Below, one piece after another: positions 2,932 to 14,442 of a stretch of DNA of 33,303 nucleotides. Source of the DNA: Clostridia bacterium (GTDB lineage Bacteria; Bacillota; Clostridia; Lachnospirales; Lachnospiraceae); the NCBI GenBank assembly GCA_029101305.1, contig JAQXQS010000038.1, forward strand, positions 1 to 33,303, written 5' to 3'. Every line of letters begins with the position of its first letter. Positions within the stretch are counted from its first letter, which is position 1. The notes under the pieces were generated by a model that did not search any database, had not been told where the DNA came from, and saw nothing but the letters and a program-made list of their open reading frames with translations. Both the position numbers and the translations under genes were made by a program.

Positions 2932-4032
2932 CTAGTTCGCATACAGATAAGCGCTATATGCCGGATCATCAATGGTGGAAGCATCAATCCAGGCTGGATC
3001 AATCCGCACATTTCTGGTAATCTCCACACTTTTCTTCGGTGCAGTCGCCATAAGTGCAGTCCAGATGGTCTGATATCCCATAGCATAAGGCTGCTGGGAA
3101 ACCACGCCTACCTCTTTATTATTGCGGATAGCTTCCTGCTGTTTCGCAGTCCCGTCAACACCAACCATCACAATCGGATCCTTGGTCTCATCTTTCGCCA
3201 TATCCAGATACAGATCAGAAATATCTGCATTGGTGCAGAACACACCGTCCAGCTGTGGATTCTTATCAAGTACTTCCTGCATTGCCGCTACCATATCATC
3301 TACCTGATCCTGGTAAATTATGTCAACCACCTCAATATCCGGGTAATTGGCGATGTAATCTGTAAAGCCCTCTACACGCTCCTGCACACTCTGGGTTTTC
3401 TCCTGAGCGGAAAAGACAACAACTTTCCCCATTTTTCCAATGGCAGATGCCAGCCTGTATGCTGCGATTTCTCCTACTCTTGTATTGTCTGTTCCTCGAA
3501 AAGCGCGGATCATCTTACTGTCACTTACGCCGGAATCAAAGGCTACAACCGGGATTCCATTTTCTTTGGCAGCTTCCAGCTGTGCCTGAAGGGAATCCAT
3601 GTCACTTGCTGAAACACACAGAACATCCGGATTCTCTGCAATTACAGCATCCAGGGTATTTACCTGGCTCTCCACGTCCTTCTCATCGCTGGCTCCTTCG
3701 AAGGTCATTGTCACCTGATCGTCCTTCTCGAAACCATATGCCTGATTTACATCTGCAATCGCCTGCTCCATTCCCTGTCTTACCAGATTCCAGAATTCTC
3801 CGCTGGTGCTCTTGCTCACAACTGCCACACGGGCTCCTGTCTGGATTTCTACAGATGTATCAATTTCAGGAATAATGGGATCCTTTTCTTCCTGTGCTTC
3901 CTCTGTGGATTCTGTAGTCTGTTCATCTGCAACCAATGGTGCGATTACTTTCTCCACCTCTTCCTTCTTACATCCGGTCATCGTGCATAATGCAGCCAGA
4001 AGAACAACAGGTATCACTGCTACTTTTTTCAT
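2932..4032 (-). CDS. Sugar-type ABC substrate-binding lipoprotein (periplasmic-binding protein family 4), orphan
   Basis: This is a 366-residue lipoprotein: basic start MKK, a hydrophobic signal and a lipobox ending in Cys21 (MTGC), followed by an acidic, threonine/glutamate-rich linker (about residues 22-60). The mature part has the ribose/galactose-binding fold pattern: VAVVSKSTSGEFWNLVRQGM at the start, then ENPDVLCVSASD, GIPVVAFDSGV, DGVFCTNADI and VGVDGT at the expected spacings. It should bind a sugar or similar small ligand outside the cell. I chose ATG 4032 because GAGGAG lies 8 bases upstream; the longer GTG at 4041 would overlap that site. No permease or ATPase gene is adjacent, so it may serve a distant transporter or signal to a sensor. 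The ligand is unknown. Confidence 0.88.
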   Translation of the reverse strand: MKKVAVIPVVLLAALCTMTGCKKEEVEKVIAPLVADEQTTESTEEAQEEKDPIIPEIDTSVEIQTGARVAVVSKSTSGEFWNLVRQGMEQAIADVNQAYGFEKDDQVTMTFEGASDEKDVESQVNTLDAVIAENPDVLCVSASDMDSLQAQLEAAKENGIPVVAFDSGVSDSKMIRAFRGTDNTRVGEIAAYRLASAIGKMGKVVVFSAQEKTQSVQERVEGFTDYIANYPDIEVVDIIYQDQVDDMVAAMQEVLDKNPQLDGVFCTNADISDLYLDMAKDETKDPIVMVGVDGTAKQQEAIRNNKEVGVVSQQPYAMGYQTIWTALMATAPKKSVEITRNVRIDPAWIDASTIDDPAYSAYLYAN

Positions 4033-4132
4033 TTCATTCACTCCTCATCTGAATGCTTAAAGGCATTCTGCTCTCAAATACCTATACCAAACAATTTTCG
4101 CAGTCTTAATCTCAGTTTAATCTTGCTTTTAC

Positions 4133-4160
4133 ATTATACACATTTTCCGCTCCGCGTCCA
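4133..4160 (-). promoter_or_regulatory. Promoter of the binding-protein gene, with leader hairpin
   Basis: On the minus strand: TGGACG (4160-4155), a 16-nt spacer and a perfect TATAAT (4138-4133). The leader of about 95 nt ends in a GAATGC/GCATTC hairpin (4051-4068) immediately before the GAGGAG site, which could modulate translation. Confidence 0.6.
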
Positions 4161-4176
4161 TAGTTTTCATTATTTT

Positions 4177-4917
4177 TTAACAAAATGATGTCAGAGCGTG
4201 TTTGAAAAAGTCAGCAAATTCAGCTCCTTCAGGTCTGGTTTCAAACTTCATCTCCTTACCGGTAACCGGATGGGAAAAGGTCAGGCTTGCTGCACACAAA
4301 GCCAGACCACCAGCCCCAATTGCCCCGTCGGTTCCGGCGCCGTACTTCCGGTCACCAGCCAGTGGCATTCCTGCATGAGCCATCTGCACCCGTATCTGGT
4401 GGTGGCGTCCTGTGTCCAGATGAATCCTCAATAACCATTTCTTGCTATCCGTTATTCTATCCCGGGCTTCATCCAGAACCTCATAGGAAAGCCGGGCACA
4501 TTTCGCTCCTGGCGTATTTTTATCAACTACGGCAGAAGTATTGGATTTTCCGTCTTTTTTCAGATAATTTTCCAGAACCGTACAGTCATCTCCCAATGCT
4601 GGCGGCATCCCATAAGTTACCGCCAGATAAATCTTTTCCATTTTTCCCGCAGTAATCTGTGCACTTAATCCCTTTGCGGCTTTCGGCGTTTTGCCAAATA
4701 CCAGTATTCCCTCTACCGGCTGATCCAGTCTGTGGATTACCGCAAGATAGGGAATACTCCTTCCCCCTGCTTTCACCGCCAGATAATTCTTAAGGCAGCT
4801 TTCCATATCCATTGCACCGATTCTGGCATTCTGTACTGCCAGTCCTGCTGGTTTCCGGCAGACAATAATATCTTTATCTTCAAAAAGAATATAATCTTCT
4901 ATCTTTCCACTGAACAT
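4177..4917 (-). CDS. RluA-family RNA pseudouridine synthase
   Basis: The 246-residue enzyme isomerises uridine to pseudouridine in rRNA or tRNA. The catalytic motif is HRLD at residues 62-65 (Asp65 is the nucleophile), in HRLDQPVEGILVFGKT. The downstream family block TGRHHQIRVQMAHAGMPLAGD is also intact. There is no S4 domain at the N-terminus, as in short RluA-type enzymes. The frame is open upstream to 5016, but that part is the 73-bp repeat at 4969-5041 read as protein; ATG 4917 has AAAGG about 8 bases upstream and begins the domain. The last codons overlap a dispersed AGCGTGTTTGAAAAAG repeat (4195-4210), so the C-terminus FFKHALTSFC is repeat-derived. The target site cannot be told from sequence. 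Confidence 0.9.
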   Translation of the reverse strand: MFSGKIEDYILFEDKDIIVCRKPAGLAVQNARIGAMDMESCLKNYLAVKAGGRSIPYLAVIHRLDQPVEGILVFGKTPKAAKGLSAQITAGKMEKIYLAVTYGMPPALGDDCTVLENYLKKDGKSNTSAVVDKNTPGAKCARLSYEVLDEARDRITDSKKWLLRIHLDTGRHHQIRVQMAHAGMPLAGDRKYGAGTDGAIGAGGLALCAASLTFSHPVTGKEMKFETRPEGAEFADFFKHALTSFC

Positions 4918-4968
4918 ATCAATAACCTTTCTGTTCCTTCTAATTATTATGAGTGTTCCATGAATGAA

Positions 4969-5041
4969 AGCCTGAGCAATATCCATAAATCCGCCATGCA
5001 AGCATAGTGAATTCATGGCTGCCGCACAGGACTTTCATAGT
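4969..5041 (+). repeat. 73-bp palindromic dispersed element, copy 1
   Basis: It begins AGCCTGAGCAATATCC and ends GGACTTTCATAGT. It matches the reverse complement of 11485-11557 at about 66 of 73 positions by hand alignment. The element is an imperfect inverted repeat centred on ATGCAAGCAT. It lies upstream of the RluA-family gene and generates a spurious N-terminal extension there. Confidence 0.85.
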
Positions 5042-5074
5042 AATTATAGAGGATGCCTTCTTTTTTTACAACAG

Positions 5075-5118
5075 AAAAAGACGGTCATCACTCTACTTAT
5101 CTTCAAATGATGACCGTC
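5075..5118 (-). terminator. Strong terminator ending the 5075-5888 transcript
   Basis: A perfect 11-bp stem, GACGGTCATCA/TGATGACCGTC (5080-5090 with 5108-5118), with a 17-nt loop, is followed on the minus strand by five T. No protein gene lies between it and the promoter at 5895-5923, so it must end that transcript. Confidence 0.8.
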
Positions 5119-5888
5119 CTAAAACTCTTCAGTATCCAATGGTCTCTACCTCGTTTTTCAAATTGTTTTCAATTTAATATTTACGTGGTCTATATTCAGT
5201 TGTTCTATATTTAGTTGTTGATTTTATTTAAAATATCTTATCTTATTCCCTGCTCATAAACGATATGATGTTTATCATTCGGTTTATTTAGAAGTTCTAT
5301 AGATGGAAATTACAATTTCACTTATTATAATCTCATTTGCAGAAATACCGAATACACTTCTTAATGCCCTGAATCATTGATATAAACAATTTCAAACTTA
5401 AGATATTAAATCCAAAACCACTTACTGGTTCATCTGCTCTCTCATATATGATATATGATAAAAAGTATGGGCGGAAGTTCCTGATATATTTCTGACTGGA
5501 ATATCAGATCTGATATTCATCTAATGCAAAGCTTCGATTCATATTCTAAAGGTTCAATATGGATCTCAAAATATCGTTCTTATCTAAGATAAGGGTTATA
5601 TTCTCTGAAGAAATGTTTCTTTACACAAGTTTCAGATCTTTGTATTAGTGGTGGACAGTTATTCAATATAAGTAATCGCTTCTATATACCTTTGATACGT
5701 TTCTTAAGTATCAGCTGAATCAAGTGATACTTGCATTTATAGGAATCGAATCTTCGTATCAGGTCTTCTTGCAGGAAACGCGATTCCTGTCTCTCTTATA
5801 TTGATTAGGAAAATTCTATGTTCCCATCGGAATCACTAAGCTCCTTTCTTTATGAAGTTGTTTGGTTTTTCTCTTGTTTTCTTTTGAT
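5075..5888 (-). ncRNA. Candidate large structured noncoding RNA (about 810 nt)
   Basis: A promoter at 5895-5923 and a terminator at 5075-5118 bracket about 810 nt with no open frame of gene length on either strand. Local inverted repeats are dense: 5781-5788/5741-5748 (8 bp), 5725-5732/5706-5713 (8 bp), nested 5598-5602/5570-5574 and 5588-5593/5579-5584, 5556-5561/5540-5545, a perfect 20-bp palindrome at 5499-5518, 5426-5430/5416-5420, 5347-5353/5277-5283, 5270-5275/5256-5261 and 5170-5175/5160-5165. A 15-nt tandem repeat lies at 5189-5218 with a weaker third unit at 5175-5189. Near the 5' end AAGGAG precedes a six-codon GTG frame (GTG to TAG), which is probably not meaningful. Large ornate RNAs such as OLE, ROOL and GOLLD are known in Firmicutes; I cannot assign this to any of them. 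A decayed gene remains possible. Confidence 0.55.
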
Positions 5889-5894
5889 GTGTTT

Positions 5895-5923
5895 ATATTA
5901 CCATTTCGCTTTCAATTTGTCAA
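5895..5923 (-). promoter_or_regulatory. Near-consensus sigma-A promoter facing a noncoding region
   Basis: On the minus strand: TTGACA (5923-5918), exactly 17 nt, then TAATAT (5900-5895). It is one of the best promoters in the window, yet no protein gene follows for more than 970 nt. It implies high expression of the 5075-5888 transcript. Confidence 0.8.
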
Positions 5924-6095
5924 TGCTTTTCTGTGCATTTTTCATTTTATTTCTGTTTTATTTTCTATTCATGCGTATTAATTCTGTTTTTTTGTATTAA
6001 TTATTTTAATTATTCAGAATATTTATTTTATCTTAATTCGCACAGACATTGCACATTTTTGAAAAAAGTATGACGTAAGTAACGCAATACAAGAA

Positions 6096-6227
6096 AGAAT
6101 CCTGCTTTGCAGGATTCTCTGCCTGCGGCGGGTCGCTCCATGCGACATCTACCGCTCCGCCGCAGTGCGATCCTGCCCGGCAGGGCTTTTTGTGTAATAG
6201 GAGATTCCAACGGAATTTCCTATTACA
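6096..6227. repeat. GC-rich compound palindromic element
   Basis: Three consecutive hairpins plus a small palindrome: AGAATCCTGC/GCAGGATTCT (6096-6118, perfect 10 bp); CTGCGGCGG/CCGCCGCAG with inner GTCGC/GCGAC (6123-6165); CCTGCC/GGCAGG (6172-6184); and TGTAATAGGAGATTCC with GGAATTTCCTATTACA (6193-6227, 16 bp, one wobble). It is far richer in GC than the AT-rich DNA to its left and probably belongs to a dispersed intergenic family. The remaining DNA (5924-6095) is AT-rich and shows nothing further. Confidence 0.7.
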
Positions 6228-6228
6228 T

Positions 6229-6266
6229 AAAAAATCAGGCCACTCTTTTTTGAAAGAATGACCTGA
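6229..6266 (-). terminator. Terminator of the hydratase gene
   Basis: The 14-bp stem (6253-6266 with 6235-6248, two wobble pairs) has a 4-nt loop and is followed by six T on the minus strand. It begins about 25 bp after the hydratase stop codon. Confidence 0.85.
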
Positions 6267-6290
6267 CCTTAATTTTCTTATTCTGTTATA

Positions 6291-8549
6291 TTATTTTCTG
6301 TTATAGTTGATAAGGCAACCCTTCAGAATGATTTCCCGCTCATCATCTGTCAGTTCCCCAAGTGTTACAGTAAATGGTACCATTCCACTCTCTTTCACCA
6401 CATAGCCGGTAATGCTGTCAGCTTTTTCCTCAACGGCCTTGCGTATTTCCGGGAAAAACAGGTAATCACCGTTTGCAAACGGAAGGTCGCCTGACGGGAT
6501 CAGGAATGGAAGCATTCCCCAGTTGATCAAGTTGGAGCGGTAACGTTTGGTAGCGTACTCATTGGCAATGTTTGCCCATCCGCCAAGTACCTTCTGACAG
6601 GAAGCAGCCTGTTCACGGGCGGAACCATCCCCTGGCTTCACGGCAAAAATCGTACTTCCTATGCCAAGATTTCCCTTTCCAACCTCAGGGTAATCCTTAT
6701 GTACAATTTCCATAACTGGCTTTAACTCTGGAACTGCTTCTACCGGACATTCCCCATTCTCAATAGCATGCTCGGCCTTCTGAATCTCCTTAGCGCGTCC
6801 AACATAAGCCGGATCCTTTCTGGACAAAGTAAACTCAGCCAGACCAAGCGGATTGGAGCGGTAAGAAGAAGTCTCACCTGATGGGATCAGTTCATCTGTA
6901 GTCGTTACCGGATCATGAATCTCAGAAACTACTTTCAGCACCAGATTCTCAGCAAGTGCCGGCATCTTCGGCCAGTCCTTGATATTCGGGCCAAACTGGA
7001 TCTCAACAGACGGATCTGCCACACCTTTGCTGTCAAATACACGGTTTGCGTAGATTGTTTTGTCAAAGAAATATTTCTGGCCTGTGTATTCACCGGTAAA
7101 ATTCTCCGCAGATGTAAGGAAGCCTTTGTTTGCCGCAGTAGCTGCAATAGAACGGGCATCCATAAGCGCAACAGAGGAAATCTGTCCATTCTGAATCTTA
7201 GAGCCCTCACGGTTCGGGAAGTTTCTTGTGGTATGGCGGATACTGAATGCATTATTTGCAGGAGTATCACCTGCACCGAAGCACGGTCCGCAAAATGCAG
7301 TCTTCACAACAGCACCTGTAGCCAGCAGATCTGCCAGGACACCATTCTTAGCCAGTTCCATATAGATCGGAGTACTTGCCGGATATACACTTAATGTAAA
7401 CGCATCTGCTCCGATACTGCTGCCGCGGAGAATGTCAGCAGCTGCACAGATATTTTCAAAGCCGCCGCCTGCACATCCTGCAATGATTCCCTGATCCACA
7501 TAAAGTTTTCCATCTATTACTTTATTCCGGAGAGTAAACGGAATCTTGCCATCCAGACTTACCTGGGCTCTCTTCTCAACATCCGCAAGAATGTCGTCCA
7601 GATTTGCATTCAGCTCATCGATCGTATAGGTGTTGCTTGGATGGAACGGCATTGCGATCATTGGCTTGATCTCGCTAAGGTCAATTTCCACACATCCATC
7701 GTAATATGCCACATCGCCAGGCTTCAGCTCTTTATAGCTCTCTGCCCTTCCATGAATCTCATAGAACTCCTGAATCTTCTCATCCGTCTGCCAGATAGAA
7801 GAAAGGCAGGTTGTCTCAGTGGTCATAACGTCAATGCCAATACGGAAATCCGCACTTAAATTGGCAACGCCAGGTCCTACGAACTCCATTACTTTATTCT
7901 TCACATAGCCGTTTGCAAATACCTTGCCAATGATCGCAAGGGCAACGTCCTGTGGACCAACGCCCGGGCGTGGTGTACCTTTCAGGTAAATGGCAACAAC
8001 CCCTGGCATATTAATATCATAAGTCTGGGAAAGCAGCTGTTTCACCAGCTCCGGTCCGCCTTCACCCATAGCCATGGTTCCAAGAGCACCATAACGTGTA
8101 TGACTGTCCGAGCCAAGGATCATCTTGCCGCATTCTGCAAGCATTTCACGGGCAAACTGATGGATAACAGCCTGATGAGGCGGAACATATACCCCACCAT
8201 ATTTCTTCGCACAGGTAAGTCCAAACATATGGTCATCTTCATTGATGGTTCCGCCTACTGCACAAAGGGAATTGTGGCAGTTTGTCAGAACATATGGCAC
8301 TGGGAAACGCTCCAGTCCTGAAGCACGTGCAGTCTGGATGATTCCTACAAAAGTGATATCATGAGATGTCAGCTTATCAAATTTAATCTGAAGCTTTTCC
8401 ATATTGCCGGAAGTATTATGGGCACTCAAAATAGAATACGCAATGGTGTTTTTCGCTGCTTCTTCTTTCGAAACTGGAAAATTGGCATCAGCTTCAGGAA
8501 TGATGGTCTGTCCGTTCTGCAGATACACACCGGTATCATATAATTTCAT
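6291..8549 (-). CDS. Aconitase-superfamily hydratase (YbhJ-like)
   Basis: A 752-residue [4Fe-4S] hydro-lyase. The three cluster cysteines are Cys359 (GCAGGGFEN), Cys420 and Cys423 ([10 protein letters not shown]), with spacing like aconitase Cys358/421/424. GSDSHTRYG (146-154) is the conserved active-site block, and a C-terminal swivel domain is present ([13 protein letters not shown]). It is shorter than AcnA or AcnB (about 870-900 residues) and, by recollection, closest in layout to the uncharacterised E. coli YbhJ type, so the substrate may be citrate/isocitrate or another hydroxyacid. No citrate synthase or isocitrate dehydrogenase gene is nearby. ATG 8549 has AGGAGG about 10 bases upstream. 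It is a single-gene unit with its own promoter (8605-8633) and terminator (6229-6266). Confidence 0.9.
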
Positions 8550-11484: not shown

Positions 11485-11557
11485 ACTATGAAAGTCCTGT
11501 GCAGCAGCCATGAATCCAGCATGCTTGCATGTTGGATTTATGGATATTGCACAGGCT
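11485..11557 (-). repeat. 73-bp palindromic dispersed element, copy 2
   Basis: Reverse complement of the element at 4969-5041. This copy is the better palindrome: CCTGTGCA pairs with TGCACAGG at the ends, and the centre is ACATGCAAGCATGC. It lies 28 bp upstream of the start of the 211-residue membrane protein gene. Confidence 0.85.
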
Positions 11558-11558
11558 A

Positions 11559-11770
11559 GACTGTATGAGTAAGTGGGGCGATAGCCCGGATTACGAATAC
11601 AGTCGGCGATTGTGGGAGCGCCATAGGCGCGGAGCAATCGACTTTCATTTACGCGAGCAACGAGCCAAAGTTCGTGCTTGCACGAAACCTTGGCGACTGC
11701 CGCGATAATCATAAGAAACTCGCAATGCGTGTTTCTTATGATTTATGGTGATGTCTGCGTAAGCAGACAT
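11559..11770. repeat. Cluster of five hairpins (composite intergenic repeat)
   Basis: In order: GACTGTAT/ATACAGTC (11559-11604); CGATTG/CAATCG with inner GCGCC/GGCGC (11607-11640); GCCAA..TTCGTGC/GCACGAA..TTGGC (11664-11693); a perfect 13-bp stem AATCATAAGAAAC/GTTTCTTATGATT (11707-11743); and ATGTCTGC/GCAGACAT (11751-11770). With the 73-bp element this fills most of the 377-bp gap between MurF and the membrane protein. None has a T-run like a terminator. Positions 11771-11834 show nothing further. Confidence 0.7.
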
Positions 11771-11834: not shown

Positions 11835-13202
11835 TTACATCTCCTGCAGCTTTGCAACAACCTTCTCAAACTGCATAAAATGAGATGCCTTTACCAGAAT
11901 CGTATCTCCTGTCCGGACATAAGAATCCAGATGCGCCAGAAGACTGTCACGGTCTGGTTCTTCTATAACGGTAAGCTCTGGATTCTTTCTTGCCATCTTC
12001 GCTATATTGGCAGAAAGTGTGCCTGTGCAGATACATACATCAATTCCACATCCGGCAGCATGCTCTCCAACCTCTTCGTGAAGCTGTACTTCATTTTCGC
12101 CAAGTTCGCCCATGTCTCCCAGGATTGCAACTCTTCTGCCAGCACCATCCTTCAATACATCAAGTGAAGCTTTCATAGACATTGGATTGGCATTGTAGCA
12201 GTCATCTACGATAAGGAAACGGTCCGTTTCGATCATATGAAATCTTCCGCTGATTGCCTCCAGTGTCTCAATTCCGTGACGGATCTGCTCCAGAGTAAGA
12301 CCATAAATACGTCCCACAGCAGTAGCGGCCAGGGCATTGTACACCATGTGTCGGCCAGGCATTGGGATATCAACGGTAAAAGAGTCCCCGCCCGCATGAA
12401 TACGGCAGGTCATTCCTTTTAAGCCTCTGCTTACGATCTCATCTGCATAAATATCCTGATTCTCTTCCATGCCGAAAAAGACAGGCTTAATGCCTTCATA
12501 TTCTTTTACGGTACAAAGTTTGTCGTCGTCTCCGTTTAATACAATGTGTCCATCTTTTTTCAGATACTTAAAGATCTCTGTTTTGGCCTTCAGCACCCCA
12601 TCCCTGTCTCCCAGATTTTCCAGATGGCAGGTACCGATATTGGTGATCACACAGGTATCTGGTCTTGCGATCTTCGCCAGACGGGTCATTTCGCCGAAAT
12701 CACTGATTCCCATTTCCAGAACTGCAATTTCGTCCTCATCCCGAAGGCGGAAAACGGTAAGCGGTAGTCCCAGCTCATTATTAAAGTTCCCCTGTGTCTT
12801 CAAAGTACGGTATTTTTCTTTTAGGACAGAGGCAATTACCTCTTTTGTACTTGTTTTTCCAACACTTCCGGTAATTCCCACAACCGGAATCTGAAGCTGC
12901 TGAAGATAAAACTCCGCGATGTCTTTCACCGCCTGAAGGGAAGACTCCACTTTGATATATGGGAAATCTGCATTCTCCAATGTACGCTCAGATAAAGTTG
13001 CCAATGCTCCTGCTTCCATTACCTGCGGGATAAATTTGTGTGCATCTACACGTTCACCCACAATGGGAACAAACAAGGTTCCTGCTTCTGCTTTCCGGCT
13101 GTCCGTTGTAATAGATGCGATTTCCTGATTCAGTTTCTCAGATGGTCCAAAATAAACACCACCACATGCCTTGGTCAGGTTTTCCAGAGTCAGATTTTTC
13201 AT
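11835..13202 (-). CDS. murF: UDP-N-acetylmuramoyl-tripeptide--D-alanyl-D-alanine ligase
   Basis: MurF adds D-Ala-D-Ala to the UDP-MurNAc-tripeptide in the cytoplasm, using ATP; this completes the pentapeptide. The 455-residue protein has the Mur ligase order: N-terminal substrate domain (about 1-105), P-loop GITGSVGKTSTK (109-120), GNFNNELGLPLT (MurF type), EMGISDFGEM, TNIGTCHLENLG, and the C-terminal domain with VDDCYNANPMSM. ATG 13202 lacks a good ribosome-binding site: the nearest is AAAGGA about 13 bases upstream, so expression may be weak or coupled. It follows ddl on the same strand, separated by a 205-bp gap filled with a palindromic repeat. The product of Ddl is its substrate. Confidence 0.95.
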   Translation of the reverse strand: MKNLTLENLTKACGGVYFGPSEKLNQEIASITTDSRKAEAGTLFVPIVGERVDAHKFIPQVMEAGALATLSERTLENADFPYIKVESSLQAVKDIAEFYLQQLQIPVVGITGSVGKTSTKEVIASVLKEKYRTLKTQGNFNNELGLPLTVFRLRDEDEIAVLEMGISDFGEMTRLAKIARPDTCVITNIGTCHLENLGDRDGVLKAKTEIFKYLKKDGHIVLNGDDDKLCTVKEYEGIKPVFFGMEENQDIYADEIVSRGLKGMTCRIHAGGDSFTVDIPMPGRHMVYNALAATAVGRIYGLTLEQIRHGIETLEAISGRFHMIETDRFLIVDDCYNANPMSMKASLDVLKDGAGRRVAILGDMGELGENEVQLHEEVGEHAAGCGIDVCICTGTLSANIAKMARKNPELTVIEEPDRDSLLAHLDSYVRTGDTILVKASHFMQFEKVVAKLQEM

Positions 13203-13250
13203 TTTTATTTTATGATCCTTTTACTATTTTTTATTTCTAACTTGTGGCAC

Positions 13251-13394
13251 GGATTGTTCCGCAGCTACGCTGCTCCCACAATCCTTCAAACATTCGGAAT
13301 CTGCTGATTTACTATGTAAATCGCTGCTTCCTCATATTTGGCGGGTTCCAAGGTCAAAAGCCTTATCGTGCAGGCACGAACAGCTTTCTGACCT
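13251..13394. repeat. Palindromic repeat between ddl and murF
   Basis: Three hairpins: GGATTGT/ACAATCC with inner GCAGC/GCTGC (13251-13284); GATTTAC/GTAAATC (13306-13322); and AAGGTCA..AAAGC pairing with GCTTT..TGACCTT with inner CGTG/CACG (about 13350-13395). The motif GCTCCCACAATC is shared, in reverse complement and with minor changes, with 11606-11620, so it appears to belong to the same repeat group. There is no T-run, so read-through from ddl to murF is likely. Confidence 0.65.
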
Positions 13395-13407
13395 TTTAAC
13401 CCTGGCA

Positions 13408-14442
13408 TTATTCATATTTTTTAAGGGAAATACGGATCAGTTCCTCACAAAGTGTAGGGTAATCCATTCCCAATACCTTGGCTTCCTGTGGAATCAGGCT
13501 GGTAGGCGTCATTCCTGGAAGGGTATTCGCCTCCAGACAGTACATGTCACCATTTTCCTTCATCATGAAGTCCAGACGGCTGTAGCCGGTAAGTCCCAGT
13601 GCTCTTGCCGCTTTTACTGCATTTTCCTGCATTTTCGCGGTAAGCTCAGGAGAGATCTCTGCCGGACAGGTTTCTACAGTAGAACCTGCCTGGTATTTGT
13701 TCTTATAATCATAAAAGCCCTGAATCGGCGCGATCTCAATGATCGGATATGCTTTGTCATCTACTACTGCAACGGAAAACTCCCGTCCTTTAATATATTC
13801 TTCCACTACAATATCTGCACCATACTGGCACGCATCAGCAAGGGCATCCTCATATTCCTTCTGGTCATTTACAATGTATACGCCTACACTGGAACCTCCA
13901 CAGCTGGTTTTTACAACTACGGGGAACAAAAGACCATGGCTGGTAATATCCTTCTCCAGATTCTCTCTTGTCATCGTAAAACCGCCTGGTGTAGGGACAT
14001 GGTTCATCAGGAAAACTTCCTTTGTGATACGCTTATCCATAGCCATGGCACTGCTGAGATAACCGGTTCCTGTGTAACGGATTCCCATCAGGTCAAATGC
14101 AGCCTGCACCTTGCCATCCTCACCGTTCGCACCATGGAGTCCAAGAAATACGATATCACATTTCTCACACAATTCCAGCACATTAGGACCGAAAAAGCTT
14201 CTTCTGGTCTTCTCCATCTCTTTGATCTGTGGATTAAAGCTCTTCATATACTCTGCTGCTTTCTCTACATCATACTCAGCAGGAAATGGGTTCTCCCAGT
14301 CAACATTCTCTACTCCGCAAAAAATATCTACCAGTATCGCCTCATGGCCCCTCTGCCGCAATGCGCCACAGATTCCTGTACCGGATACAATGGAAATCTC
14401 TCTCTCCGTACTGGTTCCTCCAGCCAAAACTACTATTTTCAT
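13408..14442 (-). CDS. ddl: D-alanine--D-alanine ligase
   Basis: A 344-residue ATP-grasp ligase that makes the D-Ala-D-Ala dipeptide used by MurF. Key residues are visible: Glu15 (STEREISIVSG), HGANGEDG (103-110), the ATP-binding KTSCGGSSVGV, the omega-loop FYDYKNKY (243-250), and Arg289, Asp291, Glu304 and Asn306 (RLDF, LEANTLPGMT). The Tyr at position 250 matches Tyr216 of E. coli DdlB, which favours D-Ala over D-lactate as second substrate, so a vancomycin-sensitive type of wall is inferred. ATG 14442 follows AAGGAG by 10 bases; the frame upstream to 14502 runs into the 40-bp repeat. It lies between the L,D-transpeptidase and murF. Confidence 0.95.
   Translation of the reverse strand: MKIVVLAGGTSTEREISIVSGTGICGALRQRGHEAILVDIFCGVENVDWENPFPAEYDVEKAAEYMKSFNPQIKEMEKTRRSFFGPNVLELCEKCDIVFLGLHGANGEDGKVQAAFDLMGIRYTGTGYLSSAMAMDKRITKEVFLMNHVPTPGGFTMTRENLEKDITSHGLLFPVVVKTSCGGSSVGVYIVNDQKEYEDALADACQYGADIVVEEYIKGREFSVAVVDDKAYPIIEIAPIQGFYDYKNKYQAGSTVETCPAEISPELTAKMQENAVKAARALGLTGYSRLDFMMKENGDMYCLEANTLPGMTPTSLIPQEAKVLGMDYPTLCEELIRISLKKYE

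Follow-up and report, generated by a model that had tools for sequence, protein, structure and literature searches.

A structured RNA family of Lachnospiraceae with a putative ribosome entry site just upstream of its pseudoknotted core

Does a stretch of a Blautia genome (family Lachnospiraceae) that holds no gene-length reading frame encode a large structured RNA, and would such an RNA be simply noncoding? The question is raised by positions 5075–5923 of the DNA analyzed here, a stretch of 33,303 nucleotides referred to below as the window. A first-pass annotation had proposed a large noncoding RNA on the minus strand, reading from a promoter TTGACA-17-TAATAT at 5923–5895 to a terminator with an 11-bp stem. 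The promoter is present as described, and the stem is perfect, with arms at 5118–5108 and 5090–5080 followed by T5 at 5079–5075. No ORF longer than 60 aa overlaps 5075–5923 on either strand, as the annotation had also stated; 13 ORFs of 20–60 aa were found, and 10 of them gave no credible Pfam match (best E 0.91). The predicted transcription unit is delimited by the following features.

5918–5923, minus strand: −35 box TTGACA, perfect in 78 of the 82 loci with enough upstream sequence
5895–5900, minus strand: −10 box TAATAT behind a spacer of 17, a 17-nt spacer being found in 77 of those 78 loci
5075–5889, minus strand: transcribed RNA of ~810 nt, predicted from the promoter and terminal hairpin, with the conserved start region CATCAAAA
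5075–5118, minus strand: terminal hairpin GACGGTCATCA...TGATGACCGTC plus T5, conserved in relatives

Both sites are thus real, but the promoter/terminator pair that had served as the main argument is weak evidence when taken alone. Nine promoter-like sites occur in 4100–6400 as compared with 7.8 (sd 2.8) in shuffled sequence, which is the chance level, and the terminal hairpin is absent from the terminator-scan list because its 17-nt loop exceeds the scan's loop limit of 8. A single-sequence fold of the element gave −176.8 kcal/mol against −148.5 kcal/mol (sd 7.7) for 20 dinucleotide shuffles, a z of −3.7. Since the sites are weak on the window alone, the case rests on comparison with relatives, and it is the conservation of the promoter, the hairpin and the predicted helices among them that lifts the element above chance.

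The core of the element was found in 34 of 37 Blautia genomes, the window's own included, by a covariance model (R1), which detected it in the window and in 33 further same-genus loci. Two of the three remaining genomes (G010 and G017) yielded fragments only, and the third (G019), which was outside the R1 search, is known by a weak DNA match alone. A DNA search found the element in same-genus genomes; in 24 genomes of other families its matches were weak at most (E 0.0013 for the best). When named genomes were scanned with a core pattern, 50 stretches were obtained, 33 of them in Blautia genomes; R1 confirms 44 of these at E 1e-10 or better, and the remaining six, one of which reached E 0.008, are chance matches in other bacteria. 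Blautia genomes that carry the RNA include luti, wexlerae, schinkii, massiliensis, glucerasea and caecimuris. In a family-wide sample, R1 had matches in 53 of 397 genomes and 44 of 334 genera, with one match listed per genome. A second covariance model, R2, was constructed from 50 cores; it matched 30 of 392 genomes in a sample of the order and 3 of 391 in a sample of the class, every one of them in Lachnospiraceae; the share of other-family genomes in these two samples is known only in part. The family, order and class counts are lower bounds because Infernal was run with stricter filters. There were no exact matches to the core pattern in viral contigs and no blastn matches in phage and plasmid records, and a phage or plasmid element was rejected on these grounds.

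One genome (L188) contains two full-length cores, at 229–454 and 3074–3300, ~2.6 kb apart; it is the sole two-core case among the loci searched alongside it, and the family scan listed one. Three loci with two R1 matches each (L047, L048 and L053) were each read as a single core split by a long insert. The Blautia counts given below for ORF1, ends and 16S duplexes refer to 33 sequences and leave out L042, in which the core is present but the terminal hairpin was missed by the search pattern, and L070 and L072, which are fragments without a core match. The best promoter score reached at least 10 of 12 in 77 of 82 loci as compared with 27 of 80 control stretches downstream of the core. The predicted RNA is 810 nt long in the window and has median lengths of 920 nt in Blautia and 754 nt in other genera, the longest values including mis-called ends such as that of L062.

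Base pairing was evaluated in two alignments. Alignment A1 contains 24 of the 33 Blautia cores (the 25 cores shorter than 260 nt, with L067 left out) and covers helices A, B, C, E and F. Alignment A4 is a sequence-only alignment of 50 sequences (16 Blautia and 34 from other genera) in which sequence ends were cut at helix B with the aid of the model alignment A3; it retains 50 of the 60 sequences of A3, five having been dropped by script and five by hand (L041, L177, L185, L196 and L198). The helices and the evidence for each are as follows.

5795–5804 with 5663–5672, minus strand: helix A, 5′ and 3′ strands, covariation in A1 and A4
5787–5791 with 5654–5658, minus strand: helix B, 5′ and 3′ strands, forming the pseudoknot, covariation in A1 and A4
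5780–5785 with 5674–5679, minus strand: helix C, 5′ and 3′ strands, A1 covariation and unguided scan
5771–5778 with 5246–5253, minus strand: long-range helix D, 5′ strand TTTCCTGC and 3′ strand GCAGGGAA, permutation matching test
5756–5763 with 5689–5698, minus strand: helix E, 5′ strand CCTGATAC and 3′ strand GTATCAAAGG, A1 covariation
5612–5629, minus strand: hairpin F with the conserved loop GTGTAAAGAAAC, A1 covariation
5537–5564, minus strand: hairpin CATATT...AATATG, covarying in the unguided scan

Helix A pairs TCAATATGAG with CTCATATTGA, and helix B pairs GTGACA or GTGGTA with TGTCAC or TACCAC. The strands are ordered A, B, C, D, E, E′, C′, A′, B′, such that helices A and B cross to form a pseudoknot. 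In A1, 93.5% of cells are paired as compared with 82.8% after shuffling and 28–39% when the strands are slid, and both sides have changed in 25 of 34 base pairs. For helices A and B in A4, the corresponding values are 98.5%, 87.8% and 27–48%, with changes on both sides in 12 of 16 base pairs. Helix A was among the paired elements of the search models, but helix B was absent from the structures of both R1 and R2 and so provides the more independent evidence. A covariation scan run without a proposed structure on 33 Blautia sequences (847 columns), which ignored kinship, placed B, A and C at the top ranks and returned 11 antiparallel stacked neighbors against 1 in a parallel control.

Helix D pairs TTTCCTGC with GCAGGAAA, ~520 nt apart in the window, and also crosses helix A. 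With cruder segments picked by regular expression, 26 of 49 sequences outside Blautia matched better than when segments were swapped, which is weak. A second test, which took its segments from A4, was clear: among 34 non-Blautia sequences the own match averaged 16.56 against 14.56 (sd 0.35) for permuted partners, a value reached in 0 of 2000 permutations. Helix D thus rests on the second test, in which several single sequences, such as L178 and L194, match poorly. The first-pass annotation had held that a lack of homologues with compensatory changes would count against a structured RNA; homologues are instead found across Lachnospiraceae and their helices covary. Compensatory changes in homologues, by which membership among large structured RNAs was judged, are present by statistics that ignore kinship, and the element is almost certainly a real structured RNA family.

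A search of Rfam 15 that included OLE, ROOL, GOLLD, raiA and HEARO found no match at the element, in line with the annotation's suggestion of a possibly undescribed RNA. Elsewhere in the window it returned only two Clostridiales-1 RNAs (RF01699), at 11489–11647 on the plus strand and 13242–13410 on the minus strand, which flank a Mur-ligase gene (11835–13202) in opposite orientation. Among 18 other-genus loci the Rfam 15 matches were limited to two tRNAs, both in L178, and permissive scans of three elements gave only matches far below gathering scores. A known Rfam RNA is ruled out by the absence of matches at or above the gathering cut-off. ARAGORN detected no tmRNA in the window, and Rfam gave no tmRNA match at the element. 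The window's own draft genome (G000) lacks a tmRNA over the cut-off, but a canonical tmRNA is present elsewhere in all nine tested relatives that carry the RNA, and a tmRNA substitute was rejected on these grounds. The 16S 3′ end was likewise not found in the draft; assembly gaps are the most likely explanation for both absences. No report of this RNA was found in literature searches of openly licensed papers.

One part of the proposal that calls for amendment is the word noncoding. A long structured RNA with its own promoter and terminal hairpin was correctly recognized, but noncoding is too simple a description, since toward each end of the RNA lies a mini-ORF whose start and stop codons are conserved. 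The first lies at the 5′ end.

5829–5849, minus strand: extended Shine-Dalgarno region of ORF1, AGAAAGGAG..GTGATTCC, forming a 16S-tail duplex of −20.4 kcal/mol
5816–5827, minus strand: mini-ORF1, ATG GGA ACA TAG, start codon present in 82 of 84 sequences

A Shine-Dalgarno sequence followed by an NTG codon is located upstream of helix A in 82 of 84 sequences, with T in 41, A in 23 and G in 18 at the first codon position; CTG was permitted by the search pattern yet never occurs. The distance from this site to helix A is narrow (20–30 nt). The mini-ORFs were spotted by eye prior to counting, and the sequences counted are not independent. Duplexes of the ORF1 leader with the 16S tail have median energies of −19.7 kcal/mol in Blautia and −15.6 kcal/mol in other genera, as compared with −5.3 kcal/mol for random 27-mers; at 20 checked gene starts of the window the median is −11.65 kcal/mol and the strongest −18.0 kcal/mol. 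The 16S tail sequence used was found in three of four relatives. Accessibility predicted by folding is mildly supportive over 22 sequences, in which the ORF1 Shine-Dalgarno appears slightly more open than average (0.51 against 0.44; 16 of 22 above), and contrary for the window itself, where a fold without pseudoknots leaves the Shine-Dalgarno and start mostly paired (0.20 and 0.03 unpaired).

The reading frame of ORF1 behaves differently in the two groups. In Blautia, ORF1 has 2–4 codons in 31 of 33 sequences, and 32 of the 33 reach a stop codon ahead of helix A. Only L062 remains open, and it is out of frame (29 nt). In other genera ORF1 is open into helix A in 38 of 49 sequences, and in 37 of these 38 the start-to-helix distance is a multiple of three (21–30 nt), L181 being the exception (25 nt). 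Among the ORF1s of both groups that end earlier, the distance is a multiple of three in 25 of 43. Overall lengths range from 2 to 34 codons, with peptides such as MGPINSLTQYESGKA or MDTLNHNLQYESGMA (start read as M). As the QYESG segment is also RNA helix A, the amino acids alone prove little; the kept frame does. The start and the frame of ORF1 show strong constraint, but the peptide is not conserved across the family. The RNA thus carries a very strong Shine-Dalgarno sequence and a start codon just 5′ of a pseudoknot and is not simply noncoding, and the sequence comparisons indicate that ORF1 is probably a true site of ribosome entry.

Taken together, the locus contains a free-standing RNA gene of Lachnospiraceae without a match among Rfam families, and comparison among relatives establishes that its promoter is conserved, that its core is built of crossing helices (A, B and C, plus the long-range D) and that a predicted ribosome entry site is kept upstream of helix A. 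We favor, by a modest balance, the reading that the working of this structured RNA involves a ribosome at ORF1. In normal function a ribosome or 30S subunit would dock at ORF1. The leading edge of a ribosome lies ~15 nt past the P-site. In most Blautia sequences, where the stop is at codon 3–5, the leading edge of a terminating ribosome would extend just as far as helix A. The ribosome of most other genera would translate across the 5′ strands of helices A and B, opening the knot, and once at the ORF1 stop it would sit over the 5′ strands of A, B and C. Given these stop positions, a docked ribosome and the knot would touch in Blautia and exclude each other in most other genera. RNA folding and ribosome occupancy would then be coupled, such that the state of the RNA would report translation, and the RNA, either within an RNP or through base pairing, might act in trans in a translation-dependent way. 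That a ribosome-gated switch is the purpose of the RNA is a tentative proposal drawn from sequence patterns. Slightly more speculative is its fullest form, a stand-alone translation-sensing RNA that docks one ribosome through its long 16S 3′-end complement, switches fold with ribosome occupancy and acts in trans instead of controlling a gene in cis. A single mechanism for both groups is an assumption, because the gate differs: translation of ORF1 would end short of the knot in Blautia and enter it in most other genera.

The main rival is protection of the 5′ end alone. The same structured RNA would use its ribosome entry site merely to shield the 5′ end from RNases, and translation would carry no regulatory meaning. 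STAB-SD elements, which are known in Firmicutes, provide the model: in cry mRNAs a strong Shine-Dalgarno sequence near the 5′ end is thought to hold a 30S subunit. The unusually strong complementarity to the 16S tail would suit the holding of a ribosome over the making of a peptide, as would the 2–4-codon ORF1 in 31 of 33 Blautia sequences and the TTG start in 41 of 82. Pure protection would not, however, need the frame kept into the helix in 37 of 38 open ORF1s of other genera, nor the narrow distance to helix A. This explanation is a possible one, and a trans-acting RNA or RNP with an occupancy-dependent fold appears the most likely role.

The second mini-ORF is found at the other end of the RNA, directly ahead of the terminal hairpin.

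5148–5154, minus strand: weak Shine-Dalgarno of ORF2 (GAGG), read from the sequence
5119–5139, minus strand: mini-ORF2, TTG GAT ACT GAA GAG TTT TAG, counted in relatives

ORF2 has about six codons, as in the relatives' TTG AAT AAC GAA GAA TTT TAA. By reading, it is present in 32 of 33 Blautia sequences (L062 is without it) and in 26 of 51 sequences from other genera, the latter comprising 23 outright picks plus L178, L181 and L193, in which the start is six bases upstream of the pick. Its stop codons among 53 six-codon picks are TAG (20), TAA (17) and TGA (16), although the picking rule itself demanded a stop and at least 2 of the 53 picks (L062 and L192) are wrong. Duplexes of its Shine-Dalgarno with the 16S tail have medians of −8.0 and −8.3 kcal/mol, weaker than those of the window's genes. 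Neither mini-ORF peptide is universal, because ORF1 spans 2–34 codons and ORF2 is missing or unrecognized in about half of the non-Blautia sequences.

These observations bear on a second rival, in which the ORF1 and/or ORF2 peptides are products in their own right. RNAIII, which encodes delta-haemolysin, and SR1, which encodes SR1P, are structured regulatory-type RNAs that also bear a short ORF, as is VcdRP. The kept frame of ORF1, with QY[EV]SG, would fit a dual-function RNA of this kind, and so would an ORF2 that mostly reads N-x-E and in which three stop codons interchange (under a picking rule that demanded a stop). We consider it unlikely given that ORF1 has only 2–4 codons in most Blautia, that QYESG coincides with helix A and can be explained by RNA pairing, and that ORF2 is unrecognized in about half of the other-genus sequences.

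The terminal hairpin and the neighboring genes bear on a third rival. The annotation's terminator holds insofar as the hairpin is conserved; the U-tract is weak in about half of the relatives, at least five T residues in the eight bases after the hairpin being found in 16 of 33 Blautia sequences and in 15 of 33 from other genera (those of 51 that passed the promoter and ORF2 filters). Among 35 fetched same-genus loci, aconitase lies upstream in 24 and a co-directed RluA-type pseudouridine synthase downstream in 29, both assignments having been made by Pfam on the window's copies. Most same-genus loci without these flanks are cut by contig ends; four (L040, L060, L061 and L068) have ~4 kb of upstream sequence without aconitase, and in two (L055 and L065) downstream sequence is present and no rluA was found. 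In other genera an aconitase ORF is among the two nearest upstream in 17 of 51 loci, and the downstream genes vary. This neighborhood is taken as an inherited position and not a functional link.

Several side features were noted around the RNA. A GC-rich palindromic stretch at 6094–6237 lies between aconitase and the RNA promoter, and its core is single copy in the window; a AGGATCGCACTG-like part of it is also found 3′ of the RNA in L178, so the palindrome may be a mobile repeat. In one clade (L184, L195 and L197) the RNA is directly preceded by two genes, one of which looks by eye like a sigma-factor gene. Downstream, many Blautia loci have, by eye, a TATACT box and after it TCTCC...GGAGAG, which as a hairpin would mask the rluA Shine-Dalgarno.

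In this third rival the RNA would be an unusually long 5′ leader of the downstream gene, which in Blautia is RluA-type. Control would be exerted at the terminal hairpin, where ribosomes translating ORF2 would prevent termination. The co-directed RluA-type gene in 29 of 35 same-genus loci is in keeping with such control, as are an ORF2 stop that abuts the hairpin and the often weak U-tract. A leader would, however, be expected to precede the same kind of co-directed gene in all members; the downstream gene differs in other genera, and the nearest gene faces the RNA in L163, L200 and L201 (an NYN-domain protein, an ABC transporter and an integrase, respectively). No rluA was found downstream in L055 and L065, and the RluA-type gene has, in the region ~5071–4918, its own promoter-like site, TTGTAA-17-TATAAT, after the hairpin, as relatives also appear to by eye. 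A leader of rluA was rejected on these grounds, and control of a downstream gene is very improbable. Chance, or a decayed protein gene of the kind that the annotation had named as its refutation, would draw on the AT-rich sequence and on the chance-level frequency of promoter-like sites when the window is taken by itself, and can be dismissed in view of family-wide compensatory changes, the conserved promoter, the lack of any ORF longer than 60 aa and the lack of a credible Pfam match for ten of the shorter ORFs.

The reading favored here is thus a trans-acting structured RNA with a ribosome at ORF1. Bacterial RNA classes this large and complex are rarely newly found, and the present one occurs in common gut bacteria, named Blautia included. 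One discovery pipeline examines GC-rich intergenic regions (PMC11109978); because the RNA is AT-rich and seen in one family only, a pipeline of this kind would tend to miss it. A large microbiome survey gives 3161 main candidates of 27–219 nt (PMC8040213). Should a ribosome take part in its working cycle, the RNA would represent a class that couples folding to translation outside the mRNA of any normal gene.

The RNA resembles OLE, ROOL and related classes in size and complexity and is somewhat dual-function-like, which is a likeness and not evidence of membership. With OLE, ROOL, GOLLD and raiA/ModT it shares the character of a long, ornate RNA with covariation; the functions of the first three are described as poorly understood (PMC12286853). 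It differs from these classes in having no Rfam match, in having no phage or plasmid copy found and in being seen in one family only. A candidate further difference is its conserved, putative ribosome entry site set against a pseudoknot. tmRNA likewise combines a pseudoknotted structure with a short reading frame; unlike tmRNA, the present RNA ends in a terminator-like hairpin and coexists with a canonical tmRNA in 9 of 9 relatives tested. With RNAIII and SR1 it shares a structured RNA plus a short ORF, but its ORF1 varies from 2 to 34 codons, overlaps the helices in most other genera and specifies a peptide that is not conserved in Blautia. It resembles STAB-SD elements in its strong Shine-Dalgarno sequence near the 5′ end, to which it adds start and stop codons and a tightly limited spacing from a covarying pseudoknot.
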